From positions 1 to 64,000 of the forward strand of contig NZ_RCVJ01000168.1 of NCBI RefSeq assembly GCF_003667505.1: DNA of 64,000 nucleotides, read 5' to 3'. Each line of letters opens with the position of its first letter. Position 1 is the first letter of the stretch. The position numbers and the translations under genes were made by a program. The DNA comes from Micromonospora sp. BL4. GTDB lineage: Bacteria > Actinomycetota > Actinomycetes > Mycobacteriales > Micromonosporaceae. Positions 8,781 to 53,345 of this stretch are shown one piece after another. The notes beneath the pieces are model-generated. The model saw only the letters and a list, made by a program, of their open reading frames with translations, was not told where the DNA came from and did no database searches.

Positions 8781-8813
8781 GAGGTGACGCCGCGACCGGA
8801 CCGATGCCTCGGG

Positions 8814-9206
8814 TCACGGTCCGTCCGGCGGGTTGGCCGGTTGCTGTCCTGGCCAGAACGGCCACTCCTCGAACGACCGGCACCGTCCATCCTCGGCGAA
8901 TCGCATGATCCACAGGTCGCGGTACTCCTGGTCGACCGGATCGCCGTAGTGGACCTCCAGGCGCGCCACCGCGGTGTCGCCGTCCACGGCGACGATCTCC
9001 CTCGTCATCTCGAACACCTCGTCGGGGCCCCTGCGCTGCTCTTCCCACATCCGGGCGATGGCCGGCAGGCCGACGACGGGCGTCCAGTACGGCCCCTGCT
9101 GGTAGCTCGCATCCTCGGCGAAGAGCGTGCCCAGCGCGTTCGTGCCCGGCGTACGCCACGCCCGCTCGTAGGCGGCGAGCCAGTCGTCGACGTGCTTCCT
9201 GTCCAC
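8814..9206 (-). CDS. NTF2-like (SnoaL-type) protein
   Basis: A 130-residue protein with the cone-shaped NTF2/SnoaL pattern: an N-terminal helix (VDDWLAAYERAWRT), then LFAEDASYQQGPYWTPVVG, then strands including DGDTAVARLEVHYGD and LWIMRFAEDGRCRSFEEW. Family members range from polyketide cyclases to binding proteins, so no reaction can be named. GTG 9206 begins 15 bases after the stop of the DUF2231 gene on the same strand, indicating one transcript. Confidence 0.8.
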   Translation of the reverse strand: MDRKHVDDWLAAYERAWRTPGTNALGTLFAEDASYQQGPYWTPVVGLPAIARMWEEQRRGPDEVFEMTREIVAVDGDTAVARLEVHYGDPVDQEYRDLWIMRFAEDGRCRSFEEWPFWPGQQPANPPDGP

Positions 9207-11469: not shown

Positions 11470-11663
11470 CTGGTAACCCCACCGCCGCTCGTCCGGAACG
11501 GCCCGTGTCTCGGCAAGTGGATACGCCGCTGGCTGGCGAAGCGTGAGTGGCGCTGATTCTTCACTCCGATGTCACCAATCCATCCCGAAGGCGACGTGTC
11601 GGCGTCTGTCCGCGGGGGTTGGCTGTCATTCGTCGCACTTGCCCTGACCAGGAGCTGATCCGC

Positions 11664-13118
11664 GTGCCTTCCTCTCGTCGTACCTTCCTCGCCGGTGGCG
11701 CCGCCGCCGGCGTGGGCCTCGCCATCGCCGGCGGCCTGCCGTCCCTGGCGCAGGCCAAGCCGGGCCGGCCGCACCCGCCGGTCAAGGCCGGTCCCGTGCC
11801 CTTCCCGCCGCTCGTGGACGACCCCGACGGCATCCTGGCCCTGCCCGAGGGCTTCAGCTACACCGTGGTCACCCGGACGGGTGTCACCCGGCTCGACCGC
11901 GGCCAGGGCGTGACCCCGGCCGACCACGACGGCATGGCCGTCTACGACGCCGGACACGGCCGCTACACCCTGATCCAGAACCACGAGATCGACCCGGGCG
12001 CCGAGTTCGGCGTGCCGCACGTCAAGGGCACGGTGTACGACTCGGGCGCCGTCGACGCCGGCGGTTGCACGGTGATCAAGACGGACCGTGCGGGCCGGAA
12101 CCTGGGTGAGTTCGTCGCCCTCTCCGGCACCATCTCCAACTGCGCCGGCGGGCCGACCCCCTGGGGGACCTGGCTCACCTGTGAGGAGACCGAGGACCGC
12201 GCGGGCGACGACTGGGAAGAGGGCGGCCGGTCCGGCGTCTACCAGAAGGATCACGGCTACGTCTTCGAGGTCTGGGCCGACGGCAGCGCGGACCCGCGGC
12301 CGATCAAGTGCCTGGGCCGCTACTCCCACGAGGCCCTGGCGGTCGACAAGGACCGGACCAGCGTCTACCTCTCCGAAGACGCCGACGGGCCCAACGGCCT
12401 CTTCTACCGTTGGACGGCGCCGCGCGGCGTCAAGCTCGGTCCCGGCGTGCTCACCCGCCTCGCACCGAACGCCGGCGTCCTCGCCGCCATGCAGATCATC
12501 ATGGACGACGGCTCCGTGCTGCCGGACGTCGCCTACCTGACCTCCGCCCAGTTGGGCCGGCCCTTCCCCGTGCGGTGGATCGAGGTGCCGGACCGCGACG
12601 CGCGCCACAAGTCCGTACGCGAGCAGTTCGCCGACGGCCAGGTGACCCGCGGACGCAAGTTCGAGGGCGTGTGGGGCACCGACGAGGGCGTGTACGTGGT
12701 CAACTCCTACGCCTGGGACGAGGGTGACCTGCCGGCGGACGCGGCTCCGCACGACGGCATGGTCTGGTTCTACAACTACGAGGCCCAGACCATCCAGCTG
12801 GTGACGTACTTCCCGCACCAAACCGCCTCGGAGGAGGGGACGTCGGTCAAGTACACCGACCTCACCTTCGACGGCCCGGACAACGTGACCGTCACCCCGT
12901 GGGGAAGCCTCGTGCTCGCCGAGGACGGCTCGGGCGCCTCCCACGTGCTCAGCGCGGTCCCGGGTGGGCCGACGTACGCGATCGCCCGCAATCAGCTCAA
13001 CGACTCGGAGTTCTGCGGGCCGACCTTCACGGCCGACGGCAAGGTGCTCTTCGTCAACATGCAGGATCCCGGCCTCACACTGGCCATCACCGGCCCGTGG
13101 GAGAAGTACCTGGGCTGA
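11664..13118 (+). CDS. Tat-exported PhoX-family (DUF839) protein
   Basis: A 484-residue exported protein. GTG 11664 gives a Tat signal directly: SSRRTFLAGG followed by a hydrophobic alanine/glycine run ending ...LAQA. The mature part has the PhoX/DUF839 pattern, with QNHEIDPGAEFG, GGPTPWGTWLTCEE, GRYSHEALAVD and YLSEDADGPNGLFYRW blocks forming a beta-propeller. Classical PhoX is a calcium/iron alkaline phosphatase. Short actinobacterial members are less studied, so phosphatase activity is probable but not certain. Substrate would be extracellular phosphoesters. An in-frame start at 11547 exists but would bury the signal peptide. Confidence 0.85.
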   Translation: MPSSRRTFLAGGAAAGVGLAIAGGLPSLAQAKPGRPHPPVKAGPVPFPPLVDDPDGILALPEGFSYTVVTRTGVTRLDRGQGVTPADHDGMAVYDAGHGRYTLIQNHEIDPGAEFGVPHVKGTVYDSGAVDAGGCTVIKTDRAGRNLGEFVALSGTISNCAGGPTPWGTWLTCEETEDRAGDDWEEGGRSGVYQKDHGYVFEVWADGSADPRPIKCLGRYSHEALAVDKDRTSVYLSEDADGPNGLFYRWTAPRGVKLGPGVLTRLAPNAGVLAAMQIIMDDGSVLPDVAYLTSAQLGRPFPVRWIEVPDRDARHKSVREQFADGQVTRGRKFEGVWGTDEGVYVVNSYAWDEGDLPADAAPHDGMVWFYNYEAQTIQLVTYFPHQTASEEGTSVKYTDLTFDGPDNVTVTPWGSLVLAEDGSGASHVLSAVPGGPTYAIARNQLNDSEFCGPTFTADGKVLFVNMQDPGLTLAITGPWEKYLG

Positions 13119-13138
13119 CCGAGCCACTTCGAACGGGT

Positions 13139-13165
13139 GGGGGTCCGGCGATCCGCCGGGCCCCC
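13139..13165 (+). terminator. Terminator hairpin after the PhoX-family gene
   Basis: GGGGGTCCGGCG and CGCCGGGCCCCC form a 12-bp stem with one G-U pair and a 3-base loop, starting 21 bases after the stop. Confidence 0.7.
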
Positions 13166-13198
13166 CGCCGCTCTCTCCGACCCCACCTGATCGACCCG

Positions 13199-23869: not shown

Positions 23870-24823
23870 TCAGTTGACGCTCACGACGACCTTTCCGAGG
23901 GCACGTCCCTTACCCACGTGGGCCAACGCCTCGGGCGTCTCGTCGAGAGTGAAGGCCCGGTCGATGTGGATGACGAGGTCACCCGCCACGCAGAGATCGG
24001 CCACCGGTTCGAAGTGGGTCGGTCCTTCCCGGACGGCGAGCACACCCAGCCGGCGGTGGGTGAGCCGGCCGGCCGCCGCGCCGATCGTCAGGACGCGCAG
24101 CAGCGCCGAGACCGATCCGCCGACGCACCGGTAGCGGCCGCCGGGGGCCAGCGCCCGGCGGTAGGCGAACACCGATCGGTGCGCGACCAGATCGAGGATG
24201 AGATCGTACGGGCCGCTGCGGGTGAAGTCCCGGCGGCGGTAGTCGATCACCTCGTCCGCGCCGACGGACCGCATGAAGTCGAGCTTGCCCGCGTTGTCGA
24301 CGCCGGTCACCTGGGCGCCGAGTCGTTTGGCCAGCTGGATCGCGAATGCGCCGGATCCTCCGCCGGCGCCGTTGATGAGGACCCGGTTGCCGGCTGCGGC
24401 GCCCGCGGTGCCCTGCTGTGCGATCACGCCCGCCTGTGGGATGGCCGACGCCTCGGCGAAGGTCAGGGCGGCGGGCTTGCGGGCCAGGACCGATTCGGGT
24501 GCGATCGCGTACTCGGCGAAACCGCCCTTGAGCATGAGGTTGTCGCCATACACCTCGTCACCGGGTCGGAACCGAGTGACGGCGGAGCCCACCGCGTCGA
24601 CCCATCCGGCGATGTCCGAGCCGAGGGTCCGGCGTGCCGGGGAGCGCAGCCCACCGATGCGCGAATACAGTGGCGAACCTTGCAGGGTTTCCCAATCGCT
24701 CAAATTCACCGAGGTCGCCGCAATCTTGACGAGCACCTGTCGGGCGGCGGGAGAGGGCTTGGGGAGATTCTCGATTCGCAGCCCATCCGGGGGCCCGTAC
24801 CGGTCGTACACGACTGCTCTCAC
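23870..24823 (-). CDS. Zinc-independent quinone oxidoreductase / alcohol dehydrogenase
   Basis: A 317-residue MDR-superfamily oxidoreductase. It opens with RAVVYDRYGPPDGLRIENLP, has a GroES-like domain (to about residue 115), then a Rossmann fold with VLINGAGGGSGAFAIQLAKRLGAQVTG, and a KVVVSVN C-terminus. Catalytic zinc cysteines are missing, so it is likely an NADPH quinone or enone reductase. The gene converges with the GNAT gene and lies upstream of no partner. Confidence 0.88.
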   Translation of the reverse strand: MRAVVYDRYGPPDGLRIENLPKPSPAARQVLVKIAATSVNLSDWETLQGSPLYSRIGGLRSPARRTLGSDIAGWVDAVGSAVTRFRPGDEVYGDNLMLKGGFAEYAIAPESVLARKPAALTFAEASAIPQAGVIAQQGTAGAAAGNRVLINGAGGGSGAFAIQLAKRLGAQVTGVDNAGKLDFMRSVGADEVIDYRRRDFTRSGPYDLILDLVAHRSVFAYRRALAPGGRYRCVGGSVSALLRVLTIGAAAGRLTHRRLGVLAVREGPTHFEPVADLCVAGDLVIHIDRAFTLDETPEALAHVGKGRALGKVVVSVN

Positions 24824-25007: not shown

Positions 25008-25026
25008 TGACCTGCACATACTTCGG

Positions 25027-25098
25027 TGGGCGATGCTGGTATCGAACCAGCGACCTCTTCGGTGTGAACGAAGCGCTCTCCCACTGAGCTAATCGCCC
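25027..25098 (-). tRNA. tRNA-Val (anticodon CAC)
   Basis: The complement folds as a complete cloverleaf: acceptor stem GGGCGAT/ATCGCCC, D-arm GCTC/GAGC, anticodon stem CTTCG/CGAAG with loop TTCACAC, and T-arm GCTGG-TTCGATA-CCAGC. The anticodon CAC reads the valine codon GUG. The 3' CCA is not encoded, so it must be added after transcription. Discriminator base is A. A terminator hairpin follows. tRNA genes are common integration sites, but no integrase is nearby. Confidence 0.96.
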
Positions 25099-40316: not shown

Positions 40317-40350
40317 CCGCCCCCGCCGACCTGCCGGTCGGCGGGGGCGG
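40317..40350. terminator. Bidirectional hairpin terminator
   Basis: A perfect 15-bp stem (CCGCCCCCGCCGACC) with a TGCC loop between the HelD gene and a convergent small gene. Confidence 0.88.
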
Positions 40351-40374
40351 TGACGGGCGGCCGTGCTCCGCCGG

Positions 40375-40800
40375 TCAGTCTCTGGCCGTGTCCTGGATGG
40401 ATTTGCTCGGACCGGTCGCGGACGTGGACTGGTCGCTGGTGCCGCCGCCCATCGGGGTGCTCAGACCACCGGTGGTGGCGTCGCCGGTCGTCGTCGGGGC
40501 GACCTTCCCCTGGTGCCGCTCCGGCTGCCGGGCGACCCGCCGCGCACTGGCCGGGCCGGCGGTGCCACCGGTCGTGGTCACCGCGCCCTGCCCCCCGACC
40601 GGGCCGCCGTCGCGCAGGACCTGCGGATCGACCCGCACCTTCGCCGGATCGTCCGGGTCTTCGCGCTGGATCTGGCTCTCCACATCGGTGCGGGGCACCG
40701 TCACCTCGTCGAGGGCGCCCTCGCCGTACACGCCGCCGGCGATCCGGTCCTCCGCCCGCCGGGCGGCCTCCTGCCGCATGTCGTCCTCACGCACGTCCAT
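40375..40800 (-). CDS. Small disordered hypothetical protein, 141 aa
   Basis: A 141-residue hydrophilic protein without a recognisable domain. The first 40 residues are helical and charged (REDDMRQEAARRAEDRIAGG); the rest is glycine-, threonine- and serine-rich and probably disordered. GAGGTG before ATG 40800 is a reasonable ribosome binding site. It diverges from the glycerophosphodiesterase gene. It may be lineage-specific; I cannot suggest a function. Confidence 0.6.
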   Translation of the reverse strand: MDVREDDMRQEAARRAEDRIAGGVYGEGALDEVTVPRTDVESQIQREDPDDPAKVRVDPQVLRDGGPVGGQGAVTTTGGTAGPASARRVARQPERHQGKVAPTTTGDATTGGLSTPMGGGTSDQSTSATGPSKSIQDTARD

Positions 40801-40985
40801 CACCTCGCAGAAGCTGTGGAACTGACTGCGTGCCCGACCGCCGGCCGACCAAACCCGCCGGGCCCCGCAGGTCGTCCACACCGGTTCACCGTCGCGCCGT
40901 CCGCCGGCCGCCTGCCGGCCGTCCCCGGTGTCCATGCTGTCCGGCGACCGGTGGGAGACGCCCGCCGGCAGGAGGGGATGACAGC

Positions 40986-43028
40986 GTGCGCAGAGTACGC
41001 CGTACCGCCATCGCGGCCCTGGTGGCCGCGACGGTGACGACCGGGATCGCCGTGCCCGCACAGGCCAAGCCTCGGCCGGACCGGACATTCGACGTGCAGG
41101 CCCACCGCGGCGGCCTCGGGTTGCGGGTGGAGAACACCCTCGCGTCCTTCGGCAACGCCCTCCAGCTCGGGGTGAGCACCCTCGAACTGGACGTGCAGAT
41201 CACCGAGGACGGCCAGGCCGTGGTCACCCACGACCGGAAGGTCACCGGCGCCAAGTGCGTCGACACCGCCCCGGTGACGCCCAATGACCCGGAGTTCCCG
41301 TACGTCGGTAAGTACGTCAACACCCTGACCGTCGCTCAGGTGCGCAGCCTCGACTGCGGTTCGAAGACGCTGCCGGACAAGCCCGGCCAGCTCGCCGTGC
41401 CGGGTGCCCGGATGCCGCTGCTGCGTGAGGTGTTCGCGCTGGTCAACCGGTACCAGGCGAAGGACGTGAAGCTCAACGTCGAGACCAAGGTGGAGGCCGG
41501 CGCGCCGACCGAGACCGCGCCCCGCGAGCAGTTCGTCCGGGTCACGGCCGCCGAGGTCCGCGCCGCCGGCCTGCTGAAGCAGGTCACCATCCAGAGCTTC
41601 GACTGGGGCGCGCTGATGCGGATGCGCCAGGTCGAGCCGAAGCTCCCCCTGGTCGCGCTGACCAACTACGACTTCCTGCAGACCGGCCAGCCGGGTGCCT
41701 CGCCGTGGCTCGGCGGGCTGGACATCGACGACTTCGGCGGCGACCCGATCCGGGCGATCCGCAGCTTCGGCGTCAGTGCCTTCTCCCCGGTGCACGGCTC
41801 CCCCCAGAACGGCACGGTCACCGAGCCCGGCTACAAGCCGTACGTCACCAGGGAGATGGTGGCCCGGGCGCACCGGTACGGGATCAAGGTGATCCCGTGG
41901 ACGGTCGACGACCTGCCGACCATGAACAAGCTCATCGACGACGGCGTGGACGGCATCATCACCGACTACCCGGACCGGCTGCGCGGCCTGCTGGCGCAGC
42001 GCGGTTACCGGCTGCCGAAGGCGTACGCGGCGCCGTTCGACATCCAGGCGCACCGCGGCGGTCGGGCGACCCGCCCGGAGAACACCCTGCCGGCCTTCGC
42101 CAACGCGCTGGCCAACCGGGCCATCTCCACCCTCGAACTGGACACCGGCGTGACCGCCGACGGCGCGCTCGTGGTGCTGCACGACCGCACGGTCAACGGC
42201 TCGCACTGCGTCGACACCGCCCCGGTGCGCCCCGGCGACCGGCAGTTCCCGTATGTGGGCAAGCCGGTGCACGAGCTGACCCTGGCGCAGCTCAAGACCG
42301 TGGACTGCGGCACGAAGACGCTGCCCGAGCTGCCCGCGCAGGTGCCCGCGCCGGGCGCCCGGATTCCCACGCTGGACGAGGTCTTCGCCCTGGTGAAGGC
42401 GAGTGGCCGCAGCGACATCGGAATGAACATCGAGACGAAGATCAGCCCGGTGGTGAACGACACCGAGCCGTACCGCAGCTTCACCCGCAAGCTGGTGGGG
42501 GCGATCCAGCGGGCCGGCTTCACCGACCGGGCCACCATCCAGTCGTTCGACTGGCGCACCATCACCTACGCCCGGCAGCTCGACCGCCGGATCGGCACGG
42601 TCGGCCTGGTCTGGCAGTACGGCCCGGCCGAGTGCGCCACCCTCGCCGACGAGTGCTCCCTCGAGGCCGTGTACGGCGACCGCTCGGTCAAGAGTCCGTG
42701 GACCGGTGGGCTGGACTGGTGGAAGTACCAGGACCTGGGCAAACTGACCCGGGCCGCGGGCGCCGGCACGGTGTCGGCGAACTGGCAGGTGCACGACCCG
42801 CGCCAGGGCACGGTCGCCTCGCCCGACTGGTACCTGCGGGAGAACCCGGCATACTTCCACGGACCGGACGTCCGGACCCTCCAGACGCGGGACGACCTGA
42901 AGGTGATCCCGTACACGGTCGACGACGCGCAGGTGATGCAGCGGGTCATCGACCTGGGTGTCGACGGGATGATCACCGACGACCCGGACCTGTTGGTGAG
43001 CGTCGCGATCCGCAACGGCCTGCGCTGA
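40986..43028 (+). CDS. Secreted double-domain glycerophosphodiester phosphodiesterase
   Basis: A 680-residue exported protein with two GDPD domains in tandem. After a signal peptide (TAIAALVAATVTTGIAVPAQA) each domain opens with Q-A-H-R-G-G, then R-x-E-N-T-L, then STLELD and a V-x-H-D-R motif; domain 1 spans about 33-340 and domain 2 about 345-680. Those His, Glu and Asp residues form the metal site in TIM-barrel GDPDs, so both domains look active. Each also keeps a C-V-D-T-A-P-V insertion with a matching cysteine (DCG). It would release glycerol-3-phosphate from phospholipid head groups or teichoic acids outside the cell. GTG 40986 follows AGGAGGGG. Confidence 0.88.
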   Translation: MRRVRRTAIAALVAATVTTGIAVPAQAKPRPDRTFDVQAHRGGLGLRVENTLASFGNALQLGVSTLELDVQITEDGQAVVTHDRKVTGAKCVDTAPVTPNDPEFPYVGKYVNTLTVAQVRSLDCGSKTLPDKPGQLAVPGARMPLLREVFALVNRYQAKDVKLNVETKVEAGAPTETAPREQFVRVTAAEVRAAGLLKQVTIQSFDWGALMRMRQVEPKLPLVALTNYDFLQTGQPGASPWLGGLDIDDFGGDPIRAIRSFGVSAFSPVHGSPQNGTVTEPGYKPYVTREMVARAHRYGIKVIPWTVDDLPTMNKLIDDGVDGIITDYPDRLRGLLAQRGYRLPKAYAAPFDIQAHRGGRATRPENTLPAFANALANRAISTLELDTGVTADGALVVLHDRTVNGSHCVDTAPVRPGDRQFPYVGKPVHELTLAQLKTVDCGTKTLPELPAQVPAPGARIPTLDEVFALVKASGRSDIGMNIETKISPVVNDTEPYRSFTRKLVGAIQRAGFTDRATIQSFDWRTITYARQLDRRIGTVGLVWQYGPAECATLADECSLEAVYGDRSVKSPWTGGLDWWKYQDLGKLTRAAGAGTVSANWQVHDPRQGTVASPDWYLRENPAYFHGPDVRTLQTRDDLKVIPYTVDDAQVMQRVIDLGVDGMITDDPDLLVSVAIRNGLR

Positions 43029-44629: not shown

Positions 44630-44795
44630 CGGAACTCCTGTGCGACAGCCGACCGCTCCAGGATGGAGTCGGACGTTGACTCGAAGGGCACCTTATCCAG
44701 CAGCCCTGTGAGGTGGCTGTGAAGTGCGCCCCCTGCTCACGGTGTGTTTCCGCAGGGATGCGCTGGGTCGCGCCAGCGGCTCACCCGTCCCACCC

Positions 44796-44857
44796 CGTTG
44801 ATCAAGAGATCTGCGTCAGGAAACGCGTTCCCGGTGACGCGAACCTCTTGATCAACG
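44796..44857. repeat. 62-nt nested palindromic element
   Basis: Perfect 13-bp outer arms CGTTGATCAAGAG (44796-44808) and its complement (44845-44857) enclose a second stem GCGTCA/TGACGC (44813-44818, 44835-44840), which encloses a third, GGAA/TTCC, around an ACGCG loop. The arms differ only at a few middle positions, so the whole element folds into one long hairpin. It lies in the 265-base gap between spo0M and the DeoR gene, both leftward. The design suits a dispersed extragenic palindrome or a non-autonomous mobile element; copy number cannot be seen here. Confidence 0.75.
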
Positions 44858-44894
44858 TCGGAAGGCTGGCGGCGCTGAGCTGTGGCGCCTGCCG

Positions 44895-45671
44895 TCAGTC
44901 GGCCTGGACGACGACCAGCTCGCCGACCTGCTCGCCGATCTCGGTACGCGCCTCCGCCGACAAGCCGAGGTCGGTGATCAGCACGTCGGCCGCCTCCAGC
45001 GGGGCGATGGTGGCGATGCCGATGGTCTCCCACTTGGTGTGGTCGGCGAGCACCACGAGCCGGCGGGCGGCGCCGATCAGGCAGCGGTTGACCCCCGCCT
45101 CCAGCAGGTTGGGCGTGGTGAAGCCGGTCCGTGGGCTGAGCCCGTGCACGCCCAGAAAGAGCAGGTCGACGTTGAGCGCGCTGATCGCCGCCTCGGCCAC
45201 CGGCCCGGTCAGCGCGTCCGACGGGGTACGGATGCCGCCGGTCAGCACCACCGTCTGGTCGGCGCGCGGATTCTGGTAGAGCGCGTCGGCCACCGGGATC
45301 GAGTTGGTCACCACGGTCAGCCCTCGTACGTCGGAGAGCAGCGTGGCCAACGCGGCGGTGGTGGTGCCGGCGGAGAGCGCGATGGCCATCCCCGGCTCCA
45401 CCATGGTCGCCGCCCGCTCGGCGATGGCCCGCTTCTCCGCCTGCTGGCGGATCGACTTCGCGGCGAAGCCGGGCTCCTCGGCCGACCCCGGCCCGGCCAG
45501 CGTCGCGCCGCCGTGCACCTTGTCCACCAGGCCGCGTTCGGCCAGCACCTCCAGGTCGCGCCGGATCGTCATGTCGGACACGCCGAACCGGCTGACGAGC
45601 TGGCTCACCCGTACGCCGCCACGCTGGCGGATCAGATCGAGAATGGCGGTCTGCCGCTGCTGGGCGAGCAC
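44895..45671 (-). CDS. DeoR-family sugar-responsive regulator
   Basis: A 258-residue DeoR repressor. The helix-turn-helix (residues 1-57) shows RVSQLVSRFGVSDMTIRRDL. The sugar-phosphate-binding domain follows, with ALSAGTTTAALATLL, VVTNSIPVADAL and FLGVHGLSPRTGFTTPN. GTG 45671 has AAGGAGG 8 bases upstream. It follows the beta-galactosidase gene after 36 bases and probably controls the galactoside genes on both sides of the divergent promoter at 47.8 kb. Confidence 0.9.
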   Translation of the reverse strand: MLAQQRQTAILDLIRQRGGVRVSQLVSRFGVSDMTIRRDLEVLAERGLVDKVHGGATLAGPGSAEEPGFAAKSIRQQAEKRAIAERAATMVEPGMAIALSAGTTTAALATLLSDVRGLTVVTNSIPVADALYQNPRADQTVVLTGGIRTPSDALTGPVAEAAISALNVDLLFLGVHGLSPRTGFTTPNLLEAGVNRCLIGAARRLVVLADHTKWETIGIATIAPLEAADVLITDLGLSAEARTEIGEQVGELVVVQAD

Positions 45672-45707: not shown

Positions 45708-47762
45708 TCAGACCGGTCCGTCGGCCCGGTCCTCCCGGACCACGGCCACCTCGCCGGCCGGCACTGTCAGCTCACCGGCACACTCCGTACCGGTCAACAG
45801 CTCGGTGCCGGTCACCGTGAGCCGTACCTCGCTCTCAGTGTGGTTGATCGCGAACAGCCAGCTTCGCTCGCCGTCGCGGCGCCGGACCACCTCCACCCCG
45901 GTCGGCGCCTGCGCCGCCGGACGGACACCCGCCTCGTCGACCAGCCGGGCGACCAGCCGGTCGGTGGCCGGCTCGTCCAGCCGGGTGCCGACGTACCAGG
46001 CGGCGCCCGCGCCGACCGGGTGCCGGGTCAGCGCCGGCACGCCGGGCAACGGCCCATCGGTGTACGCGGCGAGCACCTCGGCGCCCTCCGGGTGCAGCCA
46101 CTCGGTCCACACGTCGGCCGTGCTGTCGTCGTCCAGCCGCACCTGCTCGCCCTCGCGCAACGGAAAGAACTCCTCGGTCCGTACGCCGAGCAGCTCCCGG
46201 AACGCGCCCGGGTAGCCGCCCAGCCGGATGTGGTCATTCTCGTCCACGATGCCGCTGAAGTAGGTGATCGCCGCGGTGCCACCGGCCTGGACGAACCGGC
46301 GCAGCGCGTCGACGTCAGCATCGCGGACCAGGTAGAGGGTGGGTGCCAGGACCAGCCGGTAGCCGCTGAGGTCGGCGGACGGGTGGACGATGTCGGCGGT
46401 CACGCCGGCCCGCCACAGCGCGCCGTACAGGGCGGTCAACCGGTCGGCGTAGCGGACGTCCACACTGGGGTGCGAGTCCAGCTCGACACCCCACCACGCC
46501 TCCCAGTCGAACAGGATGGCCACGTCCGCGTCGACCCGGCTGCCGCGTACCTCGGCGAGCGCCCTGAGGTCCGCGCCCAGCTGGCAGACCTCCCGGAACA
46601 CCTTGGTCTCCGGCCCGGCGTGCGGCACCAGCGCGGAGTGGAACTTCTCGGCGCCGGCCCGGGAGGCCCGCCACTGGAAGAACAGCACCCCGTCGGCGCC
46701 GCGGGCGACGTGCGCCAGGCTGTTGCGGCGCAGCTGGCCCGGCAGCTTCGCCACGTTGCGCGGCTGCCAGTTCACCGCGCTGGTGGAGTGCTCCATCAGC
46801 AGCCACGGGTCGCCACCGGCGACGCCGCGGGTGTGGTCGGCGGAGAGCGCCAGCCCGAGGTGCGCCTGCGGGTCGGCGGCGGTGAGGTAGTGGTCGTTGG
46901 AGACCAGGTCCACGTCGTCGGCCCACGAGTGGTAGTCCATGTGCTTGATGCCGGTGCCGATCATGAAGTTGGTGGTGACCGGCTGTCGGACCAGCGTCTT
47001 CAACAGCTCGCGCTCGGCGCGCAGCTGGGCCCGCTGCTCGTCGGAGGAGAAGCGCAGGAAGTCCAGCTGCTGGGTGGGGTTGGCGAAGGTCGGCGCGGTG
47101 CGCGGCGGGTTGATCTCGGCCCAGTCGCCGTAGCGCTGGCTCCAGAACGCCGTGCCCCAGGCGTCGTTGAGCCGGTCCAGGTCGCCGTAGCGCTCGCGCA
47201 GCCAACCACGGAACGCCTCGGCGCTGACGTCGCAGTAGCAGTGCACGTTGTGGCAGCCCAGCTCGTTGGAGACGTGCCACATCACCACCGCCGGGTGCTC
47301 GGCGTACCGGCCGGCGACCGCTCGGACCAGCTTCAGCGACCGATCGCGGAACACCGGCGAGCTGGGGCAGTACGCCTGCCGGCCGCCCGGCCACAGGATC
47401 GCGCCGTCGGCTCGGCGGGGCAGCGTCTCCGGGTGCGCGCGGGCGAGCCACGGCGGCGGGCTGGCGGTGGCGGTGGCCAGGTCGACCTGGATGCCGCCGT
47501 CGTGCAACAGGTCCAGCACCCGGTCCAGCCAGCCGAACTCGAACCGGCCCGGAGCGGGCTCCAGCAGGGCCCAGGAGAAGATGCCGACGGAGACCAGGTT
47601 GACCCCGGCCCGACGCATCAGCTCGACGTCTTCCGACCAGGTCTGCTCGGGCCACTGCTCGGGGTTGTAGTCGCCGCCGAAATAGATGCCGTCACCCTGC
47701 CATCGCCGCATGAGAGCTGAGGGTGCACCCGGCGGAGCGCGCAAGTCAACAGGTTCCAACAT
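45708..47762 (-). CDS. GH42 beta-galactosidase
   Basis: A 684-residue cytoplasmic glycoside hydrolase of family 42, which removes terminal beta-linked galactose. The acid/base is Glu168 (WHVSNELG) and the nucleophile Glu324 (LLMEHSTSAVNW). Cys132, Cys170, Cys175 and Cys177 form the zinc cluster found in many GH42 enzymes. The trimerisation and C-terminal beta domains complete the usual length. ATG 47762 is chosen; an in-frame TTG at 47777 is possible. It begins a leftward operon with the DeoR gene and diverges from the sugar importer. Confidence 0.93.
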   Translation of the reverse strand: MLEPVDLRAPPGAPSALMRRWQGDGIYFGGDYNPEQWPEQTWSEDVELMRRAGVNLVSVGIFSWALLEPAPGRFEFGWLDRVLDLLHDGGIQVDLATATASPPPWLARAHPETLPRRADGAILWPGGRQAYCPSSPVFRDRSLKLVRAVAGRYAEHPAVVMWHVSNELGCHNVHCYCDVSAEAFRGWLRERYGDLDRLNDAWGTAFWSQRYGDWAEINPPRTAPTFANPTQQLDFLRFSSDEQRAQLRAERELLKTLVRQPVTTNFMIGTGIKHMDYHSWADDVDLVSNDHYLTAADPQAHLGLALSADHTRGVAGGDPWLLMEHSTSAVNWQPRNVAKLPGQLRRNSLAHVARGADGVLFFQWRASRAGAEKFHSALVPHAGPETKVFREVCQLGADLRALAEVRGSRVDADVAILFDWEAWWGVELDSHPSVDVRYADRLTALYGALWRAGVTADIVHPSADLSGYRLVLAPTLYLVRDADVDALRRFVQAGGTAAITYFSGIVDENDHIRLGGYPGAFRELLGVRTEEFFPLREGEQVRLDDDSTADVWTEWLHPEGAEVLAAYTDGPLPGVPALTRHPVGAGAAWYVGTRLDEPATDRLVARLVDEAGVRPAAQAPTGVEVVRRRDGERSWLFAINHTESEVRLTVTGTELLTGTECAGELTVPAGEVAVVREDRADGPV

Positions 47763-47832
47763 CGATTTCTTTTCCAACGTTTACCGCGTAACGGCCGTGT
47801 CACGACCGGATTATCGGCGGCGAACTGCCCTC

Positions 47833-47860: not shown

Positions 47861-47995
47861 GAGGCCCCAATGGCCGTTCGTGTTCGCCAATGTGGATTCT
47901 CGGGGGATCCCGATGTGTGATCACGACGCCGGATCTGCCTTCACCACCCCTGACGACCCTTGGGCGTAGCACCTCTTCATCCGTAGGAGGCACAG

Positions 47996-49324
47996 ATGTC
48001 CCGTCCCCGATCCCAAGCCGAATACCTGGCTCGGCTCGTACCGCCCTCCGTAGCCGGCATCAACCGACGCTCGCTGCTCGCCGGCGCCGCCGGCACGGGC
48101 GCGCTGCTCGGCACCGGCCTGCTCGCCGGCTGCGGCGACTCCGACTCCGGCGGGTCCGACTCCAAGGAGGTGTCGCTCGGGTCGAACCAGTCCGACCCGA
48201 AGCCGAAGGACGTGGTCGCCAAGGTCGTCGACGGGTTCAAGACCTCGTCCGGCGTCCAGGTCGCGGTGAACACGGTCGACCACAACACGTTCCAGGAGAA
48301 CATCAACAACTACCTGCAGGGCAAGCCGGACGACGTGTTCACCTAGTTCGCCGGCTACCGGATGCGCTTCTTCGCCCAAAAGGGACTGGCCAGCGACATC
48401 AGCGACGTGTGGGGCAAGCTCTCGGGCTACTCCGACGCCTTCAAGAAGGCGTCGACCGGGGACGACGGCAAGCAGTACTTCGTCCCGGCGACGTACTACC
48501 CCTGGGCGGTCTTCTACCGCAAGTCGGTCTGGCAGCAGCACGGCTACCAGCAGCCCAAGACCCTCGACGATCTGACCGCCCTCGCCGCGCAGATGAAGAA
48601 GGACGGGCTGACCCCGATCGCCTTCGCCGACAAGGACGGCTGGCCGGCGATGGGCACCTTCGACATCCTCAACCTCCGGATCAACGGCTACCAGTTCCAC
48701 GTCGACCTGATGGCCGGCAAGGAATCCTGGACCTCCGACAAGGTCAAGAAGGTCTTCGACACCTGGGCCGGCCTGCTCCCCCTGCACCAGCCGGACAGCC
48801 TCGGCCGTACCTGGCAGGAGGCGGCGCAGTCGCTGCAGCAGAAGAAGAGCGGCATGTACCTGCTCGGTCTCTTCGTCGGCCAGCAGTTCAGCAACGAGGA
48901 GCAGAGCGACCTCGACTTCTTCACCTTCCCGGAGATCGACCCGGCGATCGGCGCCAAGGCCCTGGACGCCCCGATCGACGGCTACATGATGGCCCGCAAG
49001 CCCAAGAATGAGGACAGCGCCCGGAAGCTGCTGGAGTACTTCGGCGGCAAGGCCGCCGCGGACATCACCGTCAAGAACGACCCGGCCACCCTGGTCGCCA
49101 ACAGTGGCGCGGACGTCAGCGGCTACACCGCCCTGCAGAAGAAGGCGGCCGAGCTGGTCGGATCGGCCACCGAGATCGCCCAGTTCCTCGACCGGGACAC
49201 CCGGCCGGACTTCGCCTCCACGGTGATCATCCCGGCGCTCCAGCAGTTCATCAAGAACCCCAAGGACATCGGCGGGCTCACCTCGAGCATCGAGAACCAG
49301 AAGAAGTCGATCTTCACCGACTGA
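47996..49324 (+). pseudogene. ABC sugar-binding lipoprotein interrupted by an in-frame TAG
   Basis: The frame encodes a 442-residue extracellular solute-binding protein, broken by TAG at 48344-48346 after codon 116. Both sides are in the same frame and join as DDVFT-stop-FAGYRMRFFAQ; in this family the stop position is normally tryptophan, so a single TGG-to-TAG change explains it. The N-terminus has a twin-arginine (NRRSLL) lipoprotein signal with lipobox LLAGC. The rest (YYPWAVFYRKSVWQ, FFTFPEIDP, GYMMARKP) is intact with normal codon use. AGGAGG precedes ATG 47996. A restart at ATG 48362 would lack an export signal. Two permeases and an alpha-galactosidase follow. It is a recent pseudogene, a read-through gene, or a sequence error. 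Confidence 0.85.
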
Positions 49325-49345
49325 CGGCGGAAGGGGGAGGACATC

Positions 49346-50302
49346 GTGTCCGACCTGCCCCTGATCCAAACGGATCGCGCCGTGCCGCCGCCGGCCGCGA
49401 CCACCTCCACGGGTGGTCGTCGCCGGCGGCTACGGCTCCTGTCCCGCACCGACCGCGTGGTCATCACGCTGATGGTGCTCGTCCCGCTGCTGCTCGTCAC
49501 GGGTTTCGTCTGGATGCCGGCGGTGGCCACCGTGCTGCTCTCCGGCACCAACTGGGACGGCATCGGCCCACTGAACGAGATCGAGTTCGTCGGCGCGCGC
49601 AACTACAGCGACGTGGTGAACATCTACCCGCCGTTCGTGCCGGCGGTCCAGCACAACCTGCTCTGGCTGGCGGTGCTGTTCCTGGTGGCCAGCCCGTTCG
49701 GCATGTTCCTGGCCGTCCTGCTCGACAAGGAATTGCGCGGCAGCCGCTTCTACCAGACCGCTCTCTACCTGCCGGTGGTGCTCTCGCTGGCGCTGATCGG
49801 CTTCGTCTGGCAGCTGCTGTACTCCCGCGATCAGGGTCTGATCAACGCCGTGTTCGGCAGCAACGTCGACTGGTACGGCGACTCGAACGTGAACATCTGG
49901 GCGGTCATGGTCGCCTCCGGCTGGCGGCACGTCGGCTACATCATGCTGCTCTACCTGGCCGGGCTGAAGGGCGTCGACCCGTCGCTGCGGGAAGCCGCCG
50001 CGGTCGACGGCGCCTCGGAGAGCCGGGCGTTCTTCCGGGTGGTGTTCCCGGTCATGCGGCCGATCAACATCATCGTGCTGGTGGTGACGGTGATCGAGTC
50101 GCTGCGCGCGTTCGACCTGGTCTGGGTGGTCAACAAGGGCCGCAACGGGTTGGAGCTGATCTCCGCGCTGGTCACCCAGAACGTCGTGGGTGAGGCGAGC
50201 CGGATCGGGTTCGGCTCGGCGCTGGCAACCATCATGCTGGTCGTCTCGCTGGTCTTCATCACCATCTACCTGGCGACCGTGATGAGGGAGAACCGGCAAT
50301 GA
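49346..50302 (+). CDS. ABC sugar transporter permease (MalF type)
   Basis: A 318-residue inner-membrane permease with six spans. The EAA loop that docks the ATPase is seen as REAAAVDGASESRAFFRVVFPVMRP, split here at YLAGLKGVDPSL and the following residues. GTG 49346 follows GGGGGAGGACATC and lies 21 bases after the binding-protein stop. It overlaps the next permease by four bases. No ATPase gene is in the operon; actinobacterial sugar importers usually share one MsiK-type ATPase encoded elsewhere. Confidence 0.93.
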   Translation: MSDLPLIQTDRAVPPPAATTSTGGRRRRLRLLSRTDRVVITLMVLVPLLLVTGFVWMPAVATVLLSGTNWDGIGPLNEIEFVGARNYSDVVNIYPPFVPAVQHNLLWLAVLFLVASPFGMFLAVLLDKELRGSRFYQTALYLPVVLSLALIGFVWQLLYSRDQGLINAVFGSNVDWYGDSNVNIWAVMVASGWRHVGYIMLLYLAGLKGVDPSLREAAAVDGASESRAFFRVVFPVMRPINIIVLVVTVIESLRAFDLVWVVNKGRNGLELISALVTQNVVGEASRIGFGSALATIMLVVSLVFITIYLATVMRENRQ

Positions 50303-51210
50303 GCACCGCGACCGCGACCCGGCGTACCGAAGACGGGGTCGAGGCCCCGGCCCGTCGCAAGCTGACCCCGGCTCGGCTGCTCCTGCACGGCTTCCTTCTC
50401 GCCGTCGCGCTGACCTGGCTCTTTCCGATCGCCTGGGCGGTGCTCACGTCGCTGCGTTCCTACGAGTACACCGCCGCCAACGGCTACGTCTCGTTCGGCG
50501 GCTGGACCGTCGACAACTACGTCACCGCCTGGCAGACCGCCGAGTTCGGCAAGCACTTCCTCAACTCGGTGTACATCACCGTGCCGGCGGTGCTGCTCAC
50601 ACTCTTCCTCGCCTCCTGCGTGGCGTTCGTCATCGCCCGGTTCAGCTGGAAGCTCAACCTGGTGCTGCTGGGCATCTTCACCGCGGCCAACCTGCTGCCC
50701 CAGCAGGCGCTGCTGATCCCGCTGTTCCGGCTGTTCACCGAGGTGCCGTTGCCGGAGTTCATGAGCGACTCGGAGCTGCTCTACGACAGCTACTGGGGGC
50801 TGATCCTGATCAACGTGGCCTTCCAGTGCGGGTTCTGCGTCTTCGTGCTCAGCAACTACATGAAGGCGCTGCCCCGCGACCTGTACGAGGCGGCGATGGT
50901 CGACGGGGCGAGCATCTGGCGGCAGTACTGGCAGGTCACCATGCCACTGTGCCGGCCGGCCCTGGCCGCGCTGGCGACCCTGGAGGTGACCTGGATCTAC
51001 AACGAGTTCTTCTGGGCCACCGTCCTCATGCGCACCGGCGACAAGTTCCCGGTGACCAGCTCGCTCAACAACCTGCGCGGCGAGTTCTTCACCGACAACA
51101 ACCTGGTCTCGGCGGGCAGCGTGCTCGTCGCGATCCCCACTCTGGTGATCTTCTTTATGCTCCAGCGGCACTTCGTCCGGGGCCTGACCTTGGGAGCCTC
51201 CAAAGGATGA
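50299..51210 (+). CDS. ABC sugar transporter permease (MalG type)
   Basis: A 303-residue permease with six membrane spans. The EAA loop LYEAAMVDGASIWRQYWQV is complete. It pairs with the MalF-type permease to form the membrane channel. ATG 50299 overlaps the previous stop and its own stop overlaps the alpha-galactosidase start (ATGA), so the three genes are translationally coupled. Confidence 0.93.
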   Translation: MSTATATRRTEDGVEAPARRKLTPARLLLHGFLLAVALTWLFPIAWAVLTSLRSYEYTAANGYVSFGGWTVDNYVTAWQTAEFGKHFLNSVYITVPAVLLTLFLASCVAFVIARFSWKLNLVLLGIFTAANLLPQQALLIPLFRLFTEVPLPEFMSDSELLYDSYWGLILINVAFQCGFCVFVLSNYMKALPRDLYEAAMVDGASIWRQYWQVTMPLCRPALAALATLEVTWIYNEFFWATVLMRTGDKFPVTSSLNNLRGEFFTDNNLVSAGSVLVAIPTLVIFFMLQRHFVRGLTLGASKG

Positions 51211-53345
51211 CCATCCTGCACCTGCGCCGCGCGCGGACCAGCCTGGTGCTCGACGCGCGCGGCCCGGGGCTGCCCCGGGTCGCGCACTGGGGCGGCGACA
51301 TCGGCGACCTCGACGACGACGGCCTGCGCCAGCTCGTCGACGCGACCGTGCCGCCGGTGGTGCCGAGCAGCTTCGACGAGCCCACCGTGCTCTCCCTGCT
51401 GCCGGAGCCGAGCGCCGGCTGGAGCGGCCGGCCGGGGCTGGCCGGGCACCGCGACGGCGCCGGCTGGTCCACCGCGTTCCGCCTGGACGGCCTCGACGTC
51501 GACGCCTCCGGGGACGAGGGCTCGGCGCGGGTGACCGTGCGGGCCAGCGACGCGGCCGCACAGCTCTCCCTGACCATCGAGATCGAGGTGGACCCGACCG
51601 GGTTGCTGCTGCTGCGCCACCGGCTGCGCAACGACGGCGACGACGCGTACGAGCTGCGGGAACTGACCCCGGTGCTGCCGGTCCCGGCGGTCGCCACCGA
51701 ACTGCTCGACCTGACCGGCCGGTGGTGCCGGGAACGGTCCCCGCAGCGGCACTCGTGGCAGCAGGGCAGCTGGGTGCGCGAAGGCCGGCACGGACGCACC
51801 GGGCACGACGCCACCCTGCTGCTGGTGGCCGGCACCGCCGGGTTCGGTTTCGGCCACGGCGAGGTCTGGGCGGTGCACACCGCCTGGAGCGGCGACCACG
51901 TCACCTTCGCCGAGCGCCGGCCCACCGGCGAGTCGACCCTCGGCGGCGGCGAGCTGCTCGCCCCCGGCGAGGTCCGGCTCGGCCCCGGCGAGTCGTACGC
52001 CACTCCCCTGCTCTACGCGGTCTGGTCCGACGACGGGCTGGACGGGCTCAGCGACGTGCTGCACACCCACCTGCGGGCCCGGCCCGGTCACCCACGCTCC
52101 CCGCGCCCGGTGACCCTGAACGTGTGGGAGGCGGTCTACTTCGACCACGACCTGGACCGGCTGCGGGCGCTGGCGGACCGGGCCGCGCAGATCGGCGTCG
52201 AGCGGTTCGTGCTCGACGACGGCTGGTTCCGCGGCCGGCGCGACGACACCGCCGGGCTCGGCGACTGGTTCGTCGACGAGGGCGTCTGGCCGGACGGCCT
52301 GCAACCGTTGATCGACCACGTGACCGGCCGGGGTCTGGAGTTCGGCCTCTGGGTGGAGCCGGAGATGATCAACCCCGACTCCGACCTGTTCCGTGCGCAC
52401 GCCGACTGGTTGCTGGCCGTGCCGGGCCGGCTGCCGGCGCTCTGGCGCAACCAGCAGGTGCTCGACCTGGGCCGGCCGGAGGCGTACGACTACCTGCTGG
52501 ACCGGCTCGACAACCTGCTCACCGAGCATCCCGGCATCAGCTACCTCAAGTGGGACCACAACCGGGACCTCACCGAGGCCGGGCACCACGGCCGCCCCGG
52601 AGTGCACGGGCAGACCCTGGCGGTCTACCGGCTCCTCGACGAGCTGCGCCGCCGCCACCCCGGGGTGGAGATCGAAAGCTGCGCGTCCGGCGGCGCCCGG
52701 GTGGACCTGGGCATCCTCGCGCGCACCGACCGGGTCTGGGCCAGCGACTGCAACGACGCCCTGGAACGGCTCAGCATCCAGCGGTGGACGGGGCTGCTGC
52801 TGCCACCGGAGCTGGTCGGCACGCACGTCGGCCCGGAACGCTCGCACACCACCAACCGCGTGCACGACCTCGGCTTCCGGGCGGCCACCGCGCTCTTCGG
52901 CCACCACGGCATCGAGTGGGACATCGCGTCGATCAGCGCCGCCGAGCAGACCGAGCTGGCCGCCTGGGTCGCGCTGCACAAGCGGCTGCGCCCGCTGCTG
53001 CACGCCGGCCGGGTGGTCCGGGTCGACCATCCGGACCCGGCCGTCTGGGCGCACGGCGTGGTCGGCCACGACGGCACCGGAGCGGTGTACGCGGTGGCCC
53101 GGCTGGCCACCTCGCTGGCGCAGTCCCCGGGCGCCCTCCGGCTGCCCGGCCTCGACCCGTGCCGGCGTTACCGGGTGCGACCGGTGTCGGACGTGCCGGC
53201 CCCGGCGACGATCGACCGGGCCGCGCCGGCCTGGCTGGCCGGCGGCGTCACGCTCAGCGGGGCGGCGCTGGCTCGGGTCGGGGTGCAGCTGCCCGCGCTG
53301 CACCCGGAGCAGAGCCTGGTCCTGGAGGTCACGGCCGCCGGCTGA
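51207..53345 (+). CDS. GH36 alpha-galactosidase
   Basis: A 712-residue glycoside hydrolase of family 36, which removes alpha-linked galactose from melibiose, raffinose and stachyose. The nucleophile is Asp450 (YLKWDHN) and the acid/base Asp514 (WASDCNDALERL). An N-terminal beta domain (1-270) and the LDDGWFRGRR barrel segment are also typical. No signal peptide is present, so it works on imported sugar. Four-base overlap with the permease gene puts it in the importer operon, which suggests the transported sugar is an alpha-galactoside. Confidence 0.94.
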   Translation: MTILHLRRARTSLVLDARGPGLPRVAHWGGDIGDLDDDGLRQLVDATVPPVVPSSFDEPTVLSLLPEPSAGWSGRPGLAGHRDGAGWSTAFRLDGLDVDASGDEGSARVTVRASDAAAQLSLTIEIEVDPTGLLLLRHRLRNDGDDAYELRELTPVLPVPAVATELLDLTGRWCRERSPQRHSWQQGSWVREGRHGRTGHDATLLLVAGTAGFGFGHGEVWAVHTAWSGDHVTFAERRPTGESTLGGGELLAPGEVRLGPGESYATPLLYAVWSDDGLDGLSDVLHTHLRARPGHPRSPRPVTLNVWEAVYFDHDLDRLRALADRAAQIGVERFVLDDGWFRGRRDDTAGLGDWFVDEGVWPDGLQPLIDHVTGRGLEFGLWVEPEMINPDSDLFRAHADWLLAVPGRLPALWRNQQVLDLGRPEAYDYLLDRLDNLLTEHPGISYLKWDHNRDLTEAGHHGRPGVHGQTLAVYRLLDELRRRHPGVEIESCASGGARVDLGILARTDRVWASDCNDALERLSIQRWTGLLLPPELVGTHVGPERSHTTNRVHDLGFRAATALFGHHGIEWDIASISAAEQTELAAWVALHKRLRPLLHAGRVVRVDHPDPAVWAHGVVGHDGTGAVYAVARLATSLAQSPGALRLPGLDPCRRYRVRPVSDVPAPATIDRAAPAWLAGGVTLSGAALARVGVQLPALHPEQSLVLEVTAAG

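Follow-up and report, generated by a model that had tools for sequence, protein, structure and literature searches.

The closest solved relative of the protein described here is AcbH, the galactose receptor of Actinoplanes sp. SE50/110 (PDB 3oo6 to 3ooa), for which a high affinity for galactose is reported (PMC3364876). We analyzed a window of 64,000 bases, the first of contig C2 in a Micromonospora draft genome (6.41 Mb in 283 contigs, rated 100% complete), which carries an AcbH-like solute-binding lipoprotein gene interrupted by an in-frame TAG. The gene resembles AcbH by family match (E 1e-85, with the alignment covering residues 1-318 of the 320 residues downstream of the stop), and differs from it in being interrupted, in lying beside GH36 and GH42 glycosidase genes, and in having a ligand that is predicted from AcbH and the neighboring genes.

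The locus can also be set against the ordinary recent bacterial pseudogene, in which one lineage has acquired a single nonsense mutation. Like such a pseudogene, it shows one stop in a conserved frame that is absent from the relatives read, neighboring genes without internal stops, and a ratio of altering to silent changes similar to that of its neighbors. Nothing observed sets the window gene apart from this class; its loss of function is presumed, and the base itself is that of the draft assembly. A literature search on Micromonospora pseudogenes, nonsense mutations or in-frame stop codons found no such report.

The interrupted gene and its neighbors

The binding-protein frame runs on the forward strand from an ATG at 47996 to a TGA at 49322-49324 (47996..49324) and comprises 442 codons that are open apart from a TAG at 48344-48346, which direct reading of the window places at codon 117, in frame with the ATG. 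The initial annotation had reported an amber codon at this position in a frame of this length, and both the coordinates and the length are right. In a profile search, the PF01547 (SBP_bac_1) match spans the stop, with one TAG inside the matched stretch. By eye, two features that we take to be signals can be made out in the encoded N-terminus, a twin arginine and an LAGC that resembles a lipobox. The predicted truncated product (47996..48346, forward strand) would consist of 116 residues followed by the stop, and neither Pfam nor NCBIfam yields a hit for this stub at E 0.001. The frame remaining after the stop (48362..49324, forward strand) starts at the first in-frame ATG, 15 bases past the TAG, and encodes 320 residues that match SBP_bac_1; a product initiated there would be without a signal peptide. 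The complementary strand opposite the gene contains a 482-residue open reading frame (47921-49369). In the relative L028 a stop interrupts the portion of this antisense frame that could be read, so that it is likely a by-product of high G+C.

Downstream on the same strand lie two ABC sugar permease genes, each matching PF00528 (49346..50302 and 50299..51210, overlapping by 4 bases at 50299-50302), and a GH36 alpha-galactosidase gene (51207..53345; PF02065, PF16875 and PF16874) that overlaps the second permease gene by 4 bases at 51207-51210 when the start at 51207, which is our choice, is used. On the minus strand, a divergent GH42 beta-galactosidase gene (45708..47777; PF02449, PF08532 and PF08533) and a gene for a DeoR-family regulator (44895..45671; PF00455 and PF08220) complete the neighborhood. 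None of these five genes contains an internal stop, and the earlier description of the rest of the operon, permeases and alpha-galactosidase, as intact was borne out.

A PF01547 binding protein together with two PF00528 permease genes gives the make-up of a sugar ABC importer. By analogy, galactose or galactosides are the likely substrate class because AcbH is the closest solved relative and GH36 and GH42 enzymes are encoded next to the transporter. Melibiose or raffinose, the substrates guessed at first, are plausible from the GH36 enzyme, but galactose or galactosides is the better label given the proximity to AcbH and the divergent GH42 gene. We found no close second copy of the binding protein in the genome; the best other match is 39% identical and sits on contig C207, where two permease matches follow it.

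Conservation of the codon and age of the change

We read the equivalent codon in 109 ortholog loci (L009-L117), of which 94 differ from one another when as many as 900 bases are compared; the set includes other actinobacterial genera and counts some genomes twice. All 109 have TGG and none has TAG, in agreement with the tryptophan that the initial annotation had expected here, and in the comparison with related binding proteins that it had proposed no ortholog ends at this codon. In 108 of the loci the frame continues to a stop 328-334 residues past the motif start. The exception, L082 (also L174), belongs to Micromonospora sp. ATCC 39149 (G103) and has a one-base frameshift about ten codons past the equivalent position, which is either an independent lesion or a sequencing error.

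Within the genus, the downstream part is matched by a close ortholog at E below 1e-180 in 104 of 151 genomes, counting the source genome, and no stop occurs in the matched stretch of any of these 104. Past the stop, the frame shares 83-96% identity with its close orthologs, which 103 of the 150 other genomes carry. With the PF01547 match across the stop and the uniform TGG of the orthologs, this takes the interrupted frame beyond chance. The genome collections hold one genome per species, with no further strains of the source species, and among the relatives read the stop appears to be confined to one lineage. A close ortholog is missing from 47 of the 151 genomes; because of this, and because one other genome is frameshifted in the same gene, the importer is considered dispensable within the genus.

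The pattern of substitutions bears on how long the gene may have been free of constraint. Across nine genes compared with up to nine relatives, with counts made for five genomes, the binding-protein gene of the source genome has 12 silent and 7 altering private codon changes, the stop among the latter. These proportions are similar to those in eight nearby genes (82 silent, 31 altering; Fisher P 0.42) and to those of the same gene in four relatives (34 silent, 14 altering; P 0.57). A fully neutral branch is rejected (6 or fewer altering changes of 18, P 0.0005), although the test for relaxation is weak: the counts would tolerate it over about 30% of the branch (P 0.08) but not over 40% (P 0.04). 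They reveal no detectable long-standing relaxation of selection. Silent changes are in excess, as they are in the nearby genes, which leaves a stop that arose recently on this branch, one that is not real, or one that is bypassed; given the decoding evidence below, recent or not real is simpler than bypassed.

As for the mutation itself, three relatives carry the same base at 24,361 positions; at 572 of these the source genome has a base of its own, in 100 cases by a change from G to A. The CCTGG context of the codon in relatives prompted us to consider a methylated CCWGG (Dcm-like) hotspot, which we rejected: among changes private to the source genome, a C-to-T or G-to-A change affects 1 of 206 inner cytosines of CCWGG sites, the amber site itself, and 174 of the 17365 remaining positions with C or G. 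Nothing special is needed to account for the G-to-A change.

Explanations for the stop

The most likely explanation is a nonsense mutation of ordinary kind and recent origin that struck the gene for the binding protein of a galactose-type ABC importer, probably with loss of uptake by that importer. In this Micromonospora lineage the tryptophan codon TGG would recently have become amber TAG through a change of G to A, so that translation would end after 116 residues and leave a stub that would not bind sugar. A protein made by restart at 48362 would lack the signal for export. Uptake by the transporter would be lost while the permeases and glycosidases have not yet decayed, and some downstream expression may be lost by polarity. 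The stop does not look like a novel use of the genetic code. If real, it would represent an early stage in the loss of a sugar uptake system whose enzymes are still whole, and the strain, although it has the genes, may be unable to import galactose or galactosides through this system. Beyond this genome the significance is small. Recent loss of uptake was one of three options offered in the initial annotation and is the one that fits best.

The second of those options, a one-base sequencing or assembly error behind which the real codon is tryptophan and the operon works, we consider unlikely, though it is the main rival. Only one genome, a draft of 283 contigs, has the change, and in its other features, among them the pattern of substitutions, the gene looks functional, as an error would predict. 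Substitution errors are rare in well-covered assemblies, and this assembly is not visibly error-rich: no other internal stop was found in 33 conserved, hand-picked window genes, or in the other 267 of 268 domain matches scored across the genome (33 PF01547, 150 PF00005 and 85 PF00528, with some proteins giving two matches and the PF00005 set being 150 of 256 candidates), while frameshifts were looked for within the window. If the base is an error, the case cautions that this draft is no sufficient basis for labeling the gene a pseudogene.

The third option, read-through or natural suppression, would have an amino acid inserted at UAG often enough to produce a useful amount of full-length protein. 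In favor of this, the frame stays open past the stop and no relaxation can be detected in it on the branch, but a recent mutation accounts for the open frame equally well, and the decoding machinery speaks against read-through. Among the 49 tRNA matches in the 283-contig draft, none has a CUA, UUA or UCA anticodon, according to a tRNA search and to ARAGORN run on loci covering all 49. Release factor RF1 is present, with a match over the cut-off and an open frame without a stop inside. The search for pyrrolysine machinery covered PylS, whose C-terminal model gives a signal in 13 of 14 control genomes, over the cut-off in 1, and has no match in the source genome. UAG as a sense codon through a suppressor tRNA, pyrrolysine or loss of RF1 is therefore unsupported.

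Codon usage at gene ends and stop counts agree with conventional decoding. The 33 conserved window genes end with TAG in 2 cases and TGA in 31, and the binding-protein gene is the only one among them, and the only one among the 268 domain matches, with an internal stop. When open reading frames of two relatives (39 of G066, 24 of G087) were compared with the window, 9 and 6, respectively, were flagged for stops or low coverage, with the binding protein in both sets; the others we took, as a group, to be extensions at the start site, antisense frames or weak matches. The base directly after the TAG is T, and a U at the +4 position is reported to lower read-through in E. coli, an effect described mainly for UAA (PMC5289835). 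With TAG in none of the 109 ortholog loci as well, we regard read-through as very improbable, and it is the option for which we found no support. We find no more credible a real TAG read in part by a near-cognate tRNA, in which a little full-length receptor would keep the operon under selection. A programmed stop serving to control the coupled genes downstream can be dismissed as negligible: the 4-base overlaps mean that upstream translation could affect downstream genes, but such a device would be expected to be conserved and none of the 109 ortholog loci has a stop here.

Genome setting and nearby regions

The nearest named relatives of the genome are Micromonospora species, and among 20 relatives compared gene by gene the nearest overall are G066 and G087 (Micromonospora sp. 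U21). The region from 44.9 to 55.1 kb is about 95% identical to these nearest relatives and aligns to G066 as one piece; therefore the stretch between the divergent genes is present in that genome too. Beside the DeoR gene, at 44725-44891, the window is without a block that is found in G066, G087 and RHAY321. In these three genomes the block encodes an ABC-2 exporter (ABC_tran and ABC2_membrane) and a TetR regulator, with a FolD-like gene in addition in G066. We considered a loss of neighboring galactose genes and rejected it, as the block absent from the window holds no sugar genes. One TGA within a FolD-like match ends a 290-residue frame, and we read it as the gene's own terminator.

Farther upstream, collinearity of the window with G066 (80 kb compared) begins at about 25026, where a tRNA-Val gene on the minus strand (25025-25098) has its edge. 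To the left of this point, only 8807-9202 and 11499-13168 align to G066 over 300 bases. Positions 1-25026 could represent a genomic island, or else the tRNA could be the site of a rearrangement; we found no long repeat of the tRNA end inside the window, and no integrase among the ten open reading frames scanned by Pfam out of 41 of at least 200 amino acids. Between this boundary and the galactose-type locus, one long frame at 40350-43028 falls into two halves that resemble each other and both contain a D[VI]QAHRGG motif; they may represent a duplicated glycerophosphodiester phosphodiesterase-like domain.
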